This document shows, piece by piece, positions 1 to 32,613 of a stretch of DNA of 64,000 nucleotides (position 1 is its first letter; each line of letters begins with the position of its first letter). Below the pieces are notes generated by a model. That model saw only the letters and a program-made list of their open reading frames with translations. It searched no databases and had not been told where the DNA came from. A program made the translations under genes and the position numbers. Source of the DNA: Thiomargarita sp. (GTDB taxonomy: Bacteria > Pseudomonadota > Gammaproteobacteria > Beggiatoales > Beggiatoaceae); contig DYSU01000004.1 of NCBI GenBank assembly GCA_020726335.1, positions 3,747-67,746 on the forward strand. The letters are read 5' to 3'.

Positions 1-450
1 TTTGTCGCCATGTTAATCGGTGGCACAACAGGTTCAACCGCAGGTGGGGTGAAGGTGATTCGTTATGTTATTGTTTTTAAAAATATTTTCCTTGAAGTTA
101 AAACTTCTTTGCATCCCAATGCAATCGTCTCGGTTTTTATTGATAATCAGAAAATAAAAACCACTTTGGTCACGTCCATTTTTGGTTTCCTAACCCTTTA
201 TATTTTAACCGTTTTATTGTTAATGCTGTATCTTTATGCCCGTGGTTTGGATGAAATGAGTTCAATTTCAACGGCACTGGCCTTGGTGGGGAATATCGGG
301 CCGGGGTTTGGTTTAACAGGACCCGTGCAAAATTATGGCTTTTTCGCTTGGTATGACAAAATCATTCTCAGTTTTGCGATGATCATCGGGCGGTTAGAGT
401 GCTACACTGTTTTTTTGCTGTTTTATAAAGGATTTTGGCAGAAATTTTAA
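1..450 (+). CDS. trkH: TrkH-family potassium uptake protein, C-terminal part (5' end outside window)
   Basis: The reading frame is open from the first base and ends at 448-450, so only about 149 C-terminal residues are visible. The protein would be the membrane pore subunit of Trk-type K+ uptake, which works with the cytoplasmic NAD-binding subunit TrkA. The motif GGTTGSTAGGVKVIR is the characteristic selectivity-filter/P-loop region of the TrkH/KtrB superfamily. It is followed by a hydrophobic segment (FGFLTLYILTVLLLMLYLY) and a last filter-like stretch (LALVGNIGPGFG), which fits the fourth pore repeat. It converges on thiD with a 4-nt overlap of the two stop regions. No trkA is visible because the upstream side is cut off. 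Confidence 0.88.
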   Translation, partial: FVAMLIGGTTGSTAGGVKVIRYVIVFKNIFLEVKTSLHPNAIVSVFIDNQKIKTTLVTSIFGFLTLYILTVLLLMLYLYARGLDEMSSISTALALVGNIGPGFGLTGPVQNYGFFAWYDKIILSFAMIIGRLECYTVFLLFYKGFWQKF

Positions 451-1232
451 ACACTTATATTGCAGCCAACCCGTCGTTGCGGGAAAAACTGCCCTTGCCC
501 CAAGCGATAACCCGCTTGCAAACTGCGCCATGTATAAGCTTGCGCTTTTTTTGTCGCGTCGTTGAGGTCAAAACCATGAGCAAGATAAGCGGCAATCGCA
601 CTGCTGAGGGTACAACCTGAACCATGATAACTGCCTGCCAGCCGTGGCCAATGCAATATTTGCGGCGGTTTTTGTGCTTGATACAAACAATTGCTGACCT
701 CTGGGCTGTTTTCATGCGTACCCGTGATCAACACCGCTGAACAACCCTGTTGCAATAAAACTTCAGCCGCTTTATCCAATTGGCTTTCCCCTGTCAAGCG
801 GCGCGCTTCCTCGCTGTTGGGCGTGATGATGGTGGTCAATGGCACTAAATTTTCCCGCATATGGGTGATCAAATCTTGCTGGCTAAAATCTTTGCCACCG
901 CCTGCGGCTAAAATCGGGTCAAGCACCACGGGCAAATCAGGGTGCTGGCGTAACACGGCCATCACCGCATCCATCACTTCAATACTGCCGAGCAACCCCA
1001 GTTTAATCACTTTTGGGTGTAAATCAGCCAGCACAGGCGCAACTTGTTGGCTGATTTGCTGGGCTGACAGCGGTATCAATTGATAAACATTGTGGCTGTC
1101 TTGCACGGTTAAACAGGTGATGATTGGTATAGCATGTGCTTGTGCCTGAAACAAGGTTTCAATATCTGCTTGTATGCCCGCACCGCCTGTGGGATCATGA
1201 CCTGAAAAAACCAACACGGGTTGGGGAATCAT
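447..1232 (-). CDS. thiD: Hydroxymethylpyrimidine/phosphomethylpyrimidine kinase ThiD
   Basis: Thiamine biosynthesis enzyme of the ribokinase fold. It phosphorylates HMP and HMP-phosphate to HMP pyrophosphate in the cytoplasm. At 261 aa it has the usual length of a stand-alone ThiD. The N-terminal substrate motif SGHDPTGGAGIQAD (about residues 10-23), VLDPILAAGGG in the middle, and the anion-hole/active-site motif GSGCTLSSAIAA near residue 205 are all present. It is not fused to ThiE or to a TenA domain. It sits alone, convergent with trkH, and no other thi gene is in the window. Confidence 0.93.
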   Translation of the reverse strand: MIPQPVLVFSGHDPTGGAGIQADIETLFQAQAHAIPIITCLTVQDSHNVYQLIPLSAQQISQQVAPVLADLHPKVIKLGLLGSIEVMDAVMAVLRQHPDLPVVLDPILAAGGGKDFSQQDLITHMRENLVPLTTIITPNSEEARRLTGESQLDKAAEVLLQQGCSAVLITGTHENSPEVSNCLYQAQKPPQILHWPRLAGSYHGSGCTLSSAIAAYLAHGFDLNDATKKAQAYTWRSLQAGYRLGQGQFFPQRRVGCNISV

Positions 1233-30311: not shown

Positions 30312-31174
30312 CAGTCAATGACCATCGCCAGTTGTTGTAATTGCCGACTCAAGGTTTCATACAACTTGGGCTGTTCTTTTTGGGGTAATTTTATGACAAG
30401 TTTTTGAATATCTTGAAGTAATTGAACAATGTGGTCATCTGTTTTTAACGCTTCTAGCAGTTGTTCACCACTGTATTGTTGTTGTCGCCAAAAAGTCTCT
30501 TCAACATCGCTGGGCAATTGGCAAACTGTCCACAACAACACCGACCATTCTCCCAATTGTTGATAAGTGGCGGGTAAATCGGGGTTGTTGGCAATGCTTT
30601 TGTTTAACAGCCGTTGTTGACCGATGGCCACGCCGGCCAAAAAAGCTTGGTGGTTGAGGCTGTCGGCTTGGCTGGGGCTAAAACCCAAGGGCGGGTTGTC
30701 TTGGCTGGCGGTCAATAAATAATTTTGTTGACTTAACACGGTTGCCAATGCGGCTTGATGGGGTTTTAGTTGCTGATAAACAGGGTTGTCTACAGGGTGT
30801 AAAATTTTAGGTAATACAATAACTAACAATAAAATACTGAAAACCACGCCCAAGTGATAAGGTTGCCATGTCATCAGTTGTGCGCTTAATTTTTTCCACC
30901 AAGGGATTTTATGCGCGTTTTGGCGCACCACCACAGGCAACGGCAGTTCTTGCATCACACTTTCACTCATTTGCCAAACTTCATAGCATTCATGGCAATG
31001 GTTTAAATGACGCAAAATTTGCTGTGCCTGAGCGGGCTTTAATTCGTTTGCAATAAAGGCGGCTAATTGGGCATCATCAGGGCAATGGCTGGTTTGTGGC
31101 TGGCGGTTGGCGAGCAAACCCAACAGCAGTTGGCAACGTTGCCAGTTGTCGGTTAATAGGGTATCGTTGTTCAT
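30311..31174 (-). CDS. Membrane anti-sigma factor with ZAS zinc finger
   Basis: 287 aa. The N-terminal cytoplasmic zf-HC2/ZAS domain carries the H-x3-C-x2-C motif in HLNHCHEC (about residues 57-64), preceded by SHCPDDAQLAAFIANEL. One membrane segment follows (about 109-128, VVFSILLLVIVL). A periplasmic domain of about 150 residues has no recognised family. It would bind and hold the adjacent sigma factor until an envelope signal releases it. Its ATG overlaps the sigma gene stop by 1 nt, and its stop overlaps the protease ATG by 1 nt. Confidence 0.83.
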   Translation of the reverse strand: MNNDTLLTDNWQRCQLLLGLLANRQPQTSHCPDDAQLAAFIANELKPAQAQQILRHLNHCHECYEVWQMSESVMQELPLPVVVRQNAHKIPWWKKLSAQLMTWQPYHLGVVFSILLLVIVLPKILHPVDNPVYQQLKPHQAALATVLSQQNYLLTASQDNPPLGFSPSQADSLNHQAFLAGVAIGQQRLLNKSIANNPDLPATYQQLGEWSVLLWTVCQLPSDVEETFWRQQQYSGEQLLEALKTDDHIVQLLQDIQKLVIKLPQKEQPKLYETLSRQLQQLAMVID

Positions 31175-32016
31175 TAAAGTAACTCACGCAGTTCTTGTTC
31201 TAAATTGCAAGATTGAAATGCTTTTAATAGGCGACTGAGCAAACGGCGATGACGGCCTTGCACTTGGTTGGTGTTCAAATGTAATCGCCTGCCCGCTTCA
31301 GTCACTTGTAATCCTTCCTGATAAATCAGCCGCAACAATAAATATTCTTCACTGCTGAGGGTCAACAAAGGTTTTAATTGGGTTAACCACAGGTCTAATT
31401 GCGGCGTAATGGCCTGTTGTCTCGTGTTTTCATTGTTATCATTAGTCAAATAATCCAGCAATTGAAACAACAAGTTGCTGAGTTGATCCACTTGTGATTG
31501 CTCTAAACAATCGGCAGGGTTGAGTTCTGCACTGACAGGTTCATCAATGTTTTCATTTTCAACCGAGAGGAATTGTTTGCGTTCTTTAAGTTTCTCTCGG
31601 CTTAAAATTTCCAATACCACCGTTTTAACAAAATCTGCTTGTAGGCCGCAGGTTCTGGCTTCATCGGTCAATAAATGGGTCGCTTCTTGGCGATTAATCC
31701 CTTTGACACACAATAAAAAATAGGCTTTTTTCCAAAATGCACCGCGTTGGTTAATCCACTTTGGCACATGCGGCACTTCGCCAATTTTGCGACAAAAATC
31801 AGTGATTAACCTATTGGCCGTCACGCTGATAAAGGCAGTAAACCCCCGACCTTGGTATTCACGGATACGCCGCCATTGGTTGACCTCTAATTTATCCAAC
31901 AAATAATCTAAAGCTTGATCAGCCAATTGACCATCATAAGGAAAACGTTTATTGGCAATGCGCTCTAAATATTGCCAATGTTGAAACACCAATGCCTTAG
32001 CTTCCTCTGGAGACAT
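31174..32016 (-). CDS. Divergent ECF-like sigma-70 family RNA polymerase sigma factor
   Basis: 280 aa. The N-terminal region (EYQGRGFTAFISVTANRLITDFCRK) fits sigma region 2, with a core-binding and -10 melting helix. The C-terminal SSEEYLLLRLIYQEGLQVTE...LHLNTNQVQGRHRRLLSRL is a sigma region 4 helix-turn-helix. The spacer between regions 2 and 4 is longer than in most ECF factors (typical length about 190 aa). It is paired with a ZAS anti-sigma gene, the standard ECF arrangement. The start at 32016 has a weak AAGAAAG site upstream. No GGAAC promoter element was found just before this gene. Confidence 0.8.
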   Translation of the reverse strand: MSPEEAKALVFQHWQYLERIANKRFPYDGQLADQALDYLLDKLEVNQWRRIREYQGRGFTAFISVTANRLITDFCRKIGEVPHVPKWINQRGAFWKKAYFLLCVKGINRQEATHLLTDEARTCGLQADFVKTVVLEILSREKLKERKQFLSVENENIDEPVSAELNPADCLEQSQVDQLSNLLFQLLDYLTNDNNENTRQQAITPQLDLWLTQLKPLLTLSSEEYLLLRLIYQEGLQVTEAGRRLHLNTNQVQGRHRRLLSRLLKAFQSCNLEQELRELL

Positions 32017-32140
32017 AAACGGTTCTTTCTTCTAAGTTAAAAACTATAGACGCAATGTTGATAAAACTTGTCGTCAACATCAGGCACAAATAAAAGCGCA
32101 GTATAAGCGGTTTATGGCGGATTTTAAAATCAATCAACTT

Positions 32141-32180
32141 AAGAAAAAATACTACCTTCGGTAAAATACCGAGGGTAGTA
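32141..32180 (-). terminator. Strong Rho-independent terminator
   Basis: A 14-bp stem (32180-32150 read on the minus strand, arms CTACCCTCGGTA and TACCGAAGGTAG with one G-T wobble, 3-nt loop) is followed by ATTTTTTCTT. It ends transcription from the Cys-rich gene and/or the small RNA, and insulates the sigma-factor operon that starts at 32016. The remaining bases 32017-32140 hold the presumed promoter region of the sigma gene; no clear -35/-10 pair stands out there. Confidence 0.8.
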
Positions 32181-32241
32181 GTAGGCAAGGTTAAGGCAGG
32201 TTTAAGAGGGAGGTTCATCCCCATGCGTGGGGAGTGCTGTA
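32142..32241 (-). ncRNA. Candidate small RNA of about 100 nt carrying a solitary CRISPR-like hairpin and an intrinsic terminator
   Basis: Between the sigma gene and the Cys-rich gene the minus strand shows a complete small transcription unit. A promoter-like pair (TTGACT, 16 nt, TAAAAC) places a start near 32241. The transcript would begin with the hairpin CCCCACGCATGGGG, continue through an unstructured C-rich stretch (AACCTCCCTCTT, able to pair with Shine-Dalgarno sequences), and end at a 14-bp stem followed by TTTTTTCTT. No open reading frame of note lies inside. The alternative is that this is only the 3' region of the Cys-rich gene transcript. No known RNA family was recognised. Confidence 0.45.
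32212..32239 (-). repeat. Solitary type I-E-like CRISPR repeat
   Basis: Read on the minus strand this 28-nt segment has the type I-E repeat architecture: a short 5' part (CAGCACT), the palindromic core CCCCACGCATGGGG with a 5-bp stem, and the 3' handle GATGAACC. The usual repeat is 29 nt with a slightly longer stem, so this one appears shortened. I saw no second copy within the next several hundred bases on either side and no cas gene in the window. It may be a relic, or a chance hairpin used by the small RNA. Confidence 0.4.
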
Positions 32242-32247
32242 ACGCCA

Positions 32248-32275
32248 GTTTTATGATTTATATGATAAAAGTCAA
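32248..32275 (-). promoter_or_regulatory. Candidate sigma-70 promoter for the small RNA
   Basis: On the minus strand TTGACT (32275-32270) is followed after 16 nt by TAAAAC (32253-32248), matching 5/6 and 4/6 consensus positions. The surrounding 100 bases are AT-rich. The predicted start falls 0-3 nt before the CRISPR-like repeat. Prediction by eye only. Confidence 0.4.
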
Positions 32276-32343
32276 GCCATATTTGTGAAAAACAGTTTAG
32301 CTGAAAATATAAATGAGACGATGAATCATTTCAAATAGATGAA

Positions 32344-32613
32344 CTATTTGCCTTCGGCTTTAGCGCGGCATTCGTCATAACTTTTTTTACATTTCGTATC
32401 CAAACAACTTAACTCATCAGGAGGTGTTTTGGCACTTTTTTTACAATCGCTTTGGCAGCCACTGTATTGTTTTGAACAAACTTTCAAAGCTTTTTCCAAT
32501 TCGGGATTACTGACAGCCCATGTGGTGGTAGGTACAACTGTCGTCATGGTCAACATCAAAGCCATCGCCATCACTGACATAACCTGATATACTCTATTGT
32601 TGTGCGATTTCAT
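32344..32613 (-). CDS. Small cysteine-rich secreted protein
   Basis: 89 aa. A signal peptide (VMSVMAMALMLTMTTVVPTTTWA) is followed by a mature peptide of about 55 residues with six cysteines (VCSKQYSGCQSDC ... LSCLDTKCKKSYDEC), enough for three disulfides or a metal site. The mature part is lysine-rich. AAGGA lies 7 nt before the ATG. I do not recognise the family. It is on the same strand as the sigma/anti-sigma/protease operon, upstream of it but separated by a terminator. A GGAAC element upstream suggests that the ECF factor may control it. Confidence 0.75.
   Translation of the reverse strand: MKSHNNRVYQVMSVMAMALMLTMTTVVPTTTWAVSNPELEKALKVCSKQYSGCQSDCKKSAKTPPDELSCLDTKCKKSYDECRAKAEGK

Follow-up and report, generated by a model that had tools for sequence, protein, structure and literature searches.

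A probable CRISPR-derived unit of leader, single type I-E repeat, spacer-length segment and terminator in Thiomargarita sp.

The locus and its transcription signals

The window, by which we mean the whole stretch of 64,000 nucleotides analysed here, carries on its minus strand, between 32284 and 32144, a promoter followed in turn by a stem-loop, a C-rich stretch that is unpaired in the fold, and a strong terminator. Upstream lies the gene of a small Cys-rich (CX3C-type) exported protein of 89 aa (32344..32613, minus strand) and downstream that of a 280-aa sigma-factor-like protein (31174..32016, minus strand), both products being without a Pfam match and the sigma label of the second being that of the first-pass annotation. 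The downstream gene heads an operon of sigma, zinc-finger anti-sigma-like and M48 peptidase genes, and the neighbours of the element are those of a chromosomal housekeeping region (a trmB-like methyltransferase, acpS, pdxJ, ferrochelatase and ftsW/rodA). The sigma-like protein has relatives at 31-50% identity in several genera of the family; a search of genome contigs found none, and the DNA around three family relatives of the gene (46-50% identity) contains no I-E repeat. A 75-aa open frame at 31997-32224, starting inside the repeat described below, was rejected as a gene because it extends past the terminator into the following gene.

The promoter consists of a -35 box, TTGACT (32275-32270), and, after 17 nt, a weak -10 box, AAAACT (32252-32247), with a predicted start at about 32241. 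From 32241 to 32142 on the minus strand, fold prediction gives two stem-loops with an unpaired stretch between them and U6 at the end; the predicted energy of these 100 nt is -26.8 kcal/mol, compared with -15.5 +/- 2.5 for shuffled sequences (z = -4.44; 0 of 200 shuffles as good). The first stem-loop, at about 32234-32218, is the hairpin UCCCCA-CGCA-UGGGGA with a perfect 6-bp stem. The second belongs to an intrinsic terminator (32144..32180, minus strand), in which a hairpin of -17.2 kcal/mol (32180-32150) is followed by six U. Strong hairpins abutting T6 occur twice in the 64-kb window when both strands are counted, and that of the element is the stronger; a simple consensus terminator scan did not pick it up, probably because of an internal mismatch in the stem. 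The hairpin is unique in the genome, which rules it out as a dispersed repeat. Every feature described by the first-pass annotation, namely the promoter-like pair, the predicted start at 32241, the stem-loop, the unpaired CCTCCC stretch and the strong terminator, is present on the minus strand. Its proposal that these parts make up a compact candidate small-RNA gene, served by a promoter and an intrinsic terminator of its own, is supported by the promoter pair, the z-score of the fold and the rarity of the terminator. What it overlooked is the CRISPR origin of the promoter and first hairpin.

CRISPR origin of the element

The -35 box with its surroundings (GGCTTGACTTTTATCATATAAATCA) is present at two further places in the genome, and the leader core exists in exactly three copies. 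With the region 32300-32100 (minus strand) as query against its own genome, both extra matches cover the promoter and first hairpin. One of them, on contig C63 (BLAST E 5.8e-8 over window positions 32284-32212), is the leader plus first repeat of a type I-E array, in which 29-nt repeats (GTATTCCCCACACACGTGGGGATGAACCG) follow each other with an exact period of 61 nt and hence with 32-nt spacers; the contig stops within this array. The other, on contig C55 (E 7.0e-7), is the third leader copy and is followed by a decayed 29-nt repeat (GTATTCCCCACGTGCGCGTGAACGAACCT) whose stem is lost. This homology of leader and first hairpin to both loci implies that the element in the window is a leader plus one repeat: a CRISPR leader with its promoter at 32241..32284 and a single type I-E repeat of 27 nt (GCACTCCCCACGCATGGGGATGAACCT) at 32211..32237, both on the minus strand. 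From its position in the array repeat, the 8-nt sequence AUGAACCU at 32211..32218 (minus strand) is the predicted 5' handle of a crRNA.

Between the handle and the expected start of a second repeat lie 32 nt (CCCTCTTAAACCTGCCTTAACCTTGCCTACTA; 32179..32210, minus strand), which are unpaired in the fold and have the spacer length of the C63 array, since a period of 61 nt less a repeat of 29 nt leaves 32 nt. The terminator lies in the register of a second repeat: its loop is centred on position 46 after the handle, that of repeat 2 in the array on position 45.5, and the terminator can therefore be said to occupy the place of the second repeat. By a rough estimate, such a register would arise by coincidence about 1 time in 20. 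We conclude that the element is almost certainly a CRISPR-derived unit, a mini-CRISPR of leader, repeat, spacer and terminator. It possesses an I-E type repeat with hairpin and AUGAACC handle, and a leader homologous to that of an array (C63) in a cas-bearing genome; having one repeat, it falls short of the at least two spacer-separated repeats by which an I-E array is defined.

Recognition of this origin also changes the reading of the C-rich stretch, which is the junction of the handle AUGAACCU and the spacer-like segment (CCCUC...) and is already explained by CRISPR homology. The first-pass annotation had suggested that CCTCCC pairs with ribosome-binding sites, and an ordinary trans-acting small RNA blocking such sites would indeed be expected to have a promoter, an unpaired C-rich stretch and a terminator, all of which are present. 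The suggestion was not borne out: over 50 translation starts of the window the best pairing reaches -17.2 kcal/mol, a value attained by 98% of mononucleotide shuffles, which, being confined to window genes and single-letter shuffles, is modest evidence. Homology to the CRISPR loci, moreover, accounts for the promoter and hairpin, and no Rfam family was found for the element; an ordinary small RNA is very improbable. The covariance models of Rfam matched neither any part of the window nor, at a lenient threshold, the three leader loci; because the true C63 array likewise goes unmatched, this test is powerless for CRISPR repeats.

The repeat of the element differs from that of the array in having one stem pair fewer, an altered loop and a last base changed from G to T, and the remaining stem and the AUGAACC core of the handle are identical in the two. 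Between the two leaders 31 of 42 positions are identical (26% of sites differ), and at this rate of identity the chance of finding all 18 retained stem and handle positions unchanged, as they are, would be 0.4%. The C55 leader is nearer to the array leader than the leader of the element is, and the predicted fold of its repeat is -3.7 kcal/mol, against -9.6 for the repeat in the window. These comparisons favour selection on the hairpin of the element. Selection may, however, have acted on the locus while it was still an array, prior to its collapse, and the conservation of the stem is then no proof of a present function.

Cas machinery and a candidate guide RNA

The genome encodes a complete Cascade (Cas8e, Cse2, Cas7e, Cas5e, Cas6e) in a cse1-cse2-cas7-cas5-cas6e operon on contig C41, all genes scoring above the I-E family cut-offs bar one of the two cse1 models. 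The 5' neighbour of this operon is a divergent mnmA-like gene. An I-E type cas3 stands alone on contig C74, apart from the Cascade operon (L033, G000:C74, 2841-5396), and adjoins polA. The cas1 gene (L013, G000:C41, about 40-630, minus strand) lacks about 100 internal residues and has a stop codon between the N-terminal and C-terminal pieces that are left, as read from one draft assembly. No second copy was found in the genome and, the sole cas1 being internally deleted, adaptation has probably been lost.

It is quite possible, if a little short of an even chance, that the element is still expressed and yields a guide RNA with one handle that loads onto Cascade. In this mechanism the CRISPR leader promoter would drive transcription, from about 32241 to 32144, of the single I-E repeat, the 32-nt spacer-like stretch and the terminator standing at the place of repeat 2. 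Cas6e, the gene of which is present in the genome, is predicted to cut at the base of the first hairpin and so to produce the handle AUGAACCU, and the 3' end of the guide would come from termination rather than from a second Cas6e cut. The resulting one-handle, crRNA-like RNA would load onto Cascade, and the loaded guide might seed-pair with DNA and act as CreA and CreR RNAs do, by repression or interference, or it might simply occupy Cascade. Such a guide is supported by the homology of leader and repeat, by the true array with a 61-nt period and the same repeat type, by the intact Cascade and cas3, by the retention of stem and handle despite the divergence of the leader while the stem at C55 was lost, and by a terminator in the register of repeat 2. 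Against it stand the changed last base and stem length of the repeat relative to the array, and the outcome of the target searches described in the following section.

Target searches

Searches of the genome, the cas promoters, and viral, phage and plasmid sequences yielded no convincing target. When as many as 3 mismatches are tolerated over 21 nt, the spacer has the element itself as its sole match in its own genome. The PAMs of the E. coli I-E system are AAG, AGG, ATG and GAG; this E. coli rule was applied in the search because spacers 1 and 2 of the array had no viral match from which a PAM could be learned. The seed comprises guide positions 1-5 and 7-11 (PMC8501985). The seed pattern of the guide occurs at 23 other places in the genome, below the count of a control pattern. 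At two non-self sites, with PAMs ATG and AGG, guide positions 1-5 and 7-12 are matched in full (11/11); both sites lie within coding sequence, in an hflD-like gene and rpsM (G000:C51:20614 and G000:C65:24421; L036 and L037), and are probably chance matches. That the best seed sites are coding also speaks against a working guide.

Neither the cas8e nor the cas3 promoter, where a Cas-regulating CreR RNA would be expected to pair, holds a seed match above background: the best at the cas8e promoter is 8/10, next to TTC, which is not a known PAM, and 23 of 302 background stretches also reach 8. Within 750 bp around the element, where a CreA guide would find the promoter of an adjacent toxin gene, the guide matches nothing save the element itself.

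The element might alternatively be an immune unit, a one-spacer array producing a crRNA against a mobile element missing from the databases, for which the canonical length of the spacer, its position behind a usable handle and the intactness of Cascade and Cas3 can be cited. The first 20 nt of the spacer match none of 2.9 million viral contigs, and the spacer has chance-level matches alone among phages and plasmids. Spacers 1 and 2 of the C63 array are likewise without a match in the viral contigs, and the viral null for the element is accordingly weak evidence against immunity. Since a second repeat is also missing, we regard an immune unit as improbable.

Relation to known systems

The closest parallel is the one-repeat creA of Haloarcula hispanica, a type I-B system in which the second repeat is thought to have been lost as a terminator evolved (PMC8501985). 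Both elements have one repeat, an 8-nt 5' handle and a spacer-like guide; in both a terminator replaces the second repeat, and in both Cascade is encoded in the same genome. CreA is characterized by a degenerate repeat and a spacer-like guide, together with either a terminator or another degenerate repeat (PMC8501985), and this combination is found here. The window element differs in being type I-E and bacterial, in having a barely degenerate repeat and a still recognisable CRISPR leader, and in lying away from the cas operon, with neither a neighbouring toxin gene nor a seed-matching promoter found. With the CreR RNAs, Cas-regulating mini-CRISPR RNAs (PMC12737573, PMC12948488), it shares a minimal crRNA-like unit, a type I host and the lack of a toxin, but neither the cas8e nor the cas3 promoter offers it a seed match, and it is at least 35 kb from the contig of the cas operon. 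The promoter target that defines either class was sought and not found, and the element is for this reason not filed as CreA or CreR.

Solitary repeat units, from which Racr RNAs inhibiting Cas proteins by mimicry are expressed, likewise have a lone repeat 3' of a promoter and of the subtype of the host's CRISPR (PMC10651486), and the promoter directly ahead of the single repeat in the window resembles this arrangement. Racrs are borne by phages, prophages or plasmids, whereas the element has chromosomal housekeeping neighbours, keeps the host's own leader and possesses a spacer-length segment and a terminator; in addition, a 23-nt stretch of the repeat was not found in viral contigs. On context the assignment to Racr was rejected, and a Racr-like inhibitor is very unlikely.

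An active element would carry the guide design of one repeat plus terminator over from the haloarchaeal I-B creA to bacterial type I-E, and it would provide a reason for a complete Cascade being kept beside a broken cas1. A more specific proposal, which we consider unlikely, is that of a non-immune chromosomal guide gene, an I-E mini-CRISPR with a terminator for repeat 2 through which Cascade would control the transcription of some gene other than the cas genes or an adjacent toxin, thereby helping to retain Cascade in a genome with a broken cas1.

Array remnants in the genome and the family

The element may equally be the inert relic of an I-E array that collapsed through recombination between repeats to a leader, one repeat and a trailer, in which case the 32-nt stretch and the terminator would represent the downstream flank of the former array and would do nothing specific even if transcribed. 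The internal deletion of the sole cas1, which leaves arrays not renewable, the clearly decayed repeat behind the second leader on C55 and the empty target searches all agree with this. Orphan and collapsed arrays resemble the element in having the leader and repeat of a host array without adjacent cas genes; the element differs from them in being reduced to one repeat and in having a terminator in the register of the second, the roughly 1-in-20 coincidence that a relic would require. Changes in leader and loop, moreover, have left the stem and handle whole, and hairpin decay of the C55 type is absent. Taking both sides together, we hold a working guide and the relic of a collapsed array to be about equally probable, each slightly below an even chance. 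If inert, the element would be a clear case of a collapsed array that can be mistaken for a small-RNA gene, which matters for small-RNA annotation.

Among relatives, the DNA of the element has no match in 57 other relatives searched; 36 members of the family gave none, in a set without a second genome of the genus, and plasmids gave no match either. I-E repeats of the GGGGATGAACC type occur in 6 of 43 genomes of the order, all of one family, and these family members carry long arrays as well as two-repeat units with a degenerate second repeat (G013:C31, G062:C41, G033:C160). No cas genes were found beside the two-repeat mini-arrays in the short stretches fetched. Two-repeat remnants and lone repeats of this kind, without cas genes in the fetched stretches, are common among the relatives and support the relic reading; the terminator arrangement of the window element is absent from the family mini-arrays examined. 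Four of the mini-array loci (L094, L095, L096 and L097, in G013, G062 and G033) are two-repeat I-E units, most with a degenerate second repeat, and a further locus (L093, G013:C5, minus strand) consists of one perfect I-E repeat that lies close to the end of its contig and has no recognisable leader. In the genome of the element itself, the decayed repeat on C55 (L005, G000:C55, 545-660, minus strand) ends in GAACCT, as does that of the window element, and this leader with its repeat lies directly upstream of the gene of an exported-looking protein of at least 174 aa without a Pfam match, which the leader may serve as a promoter.
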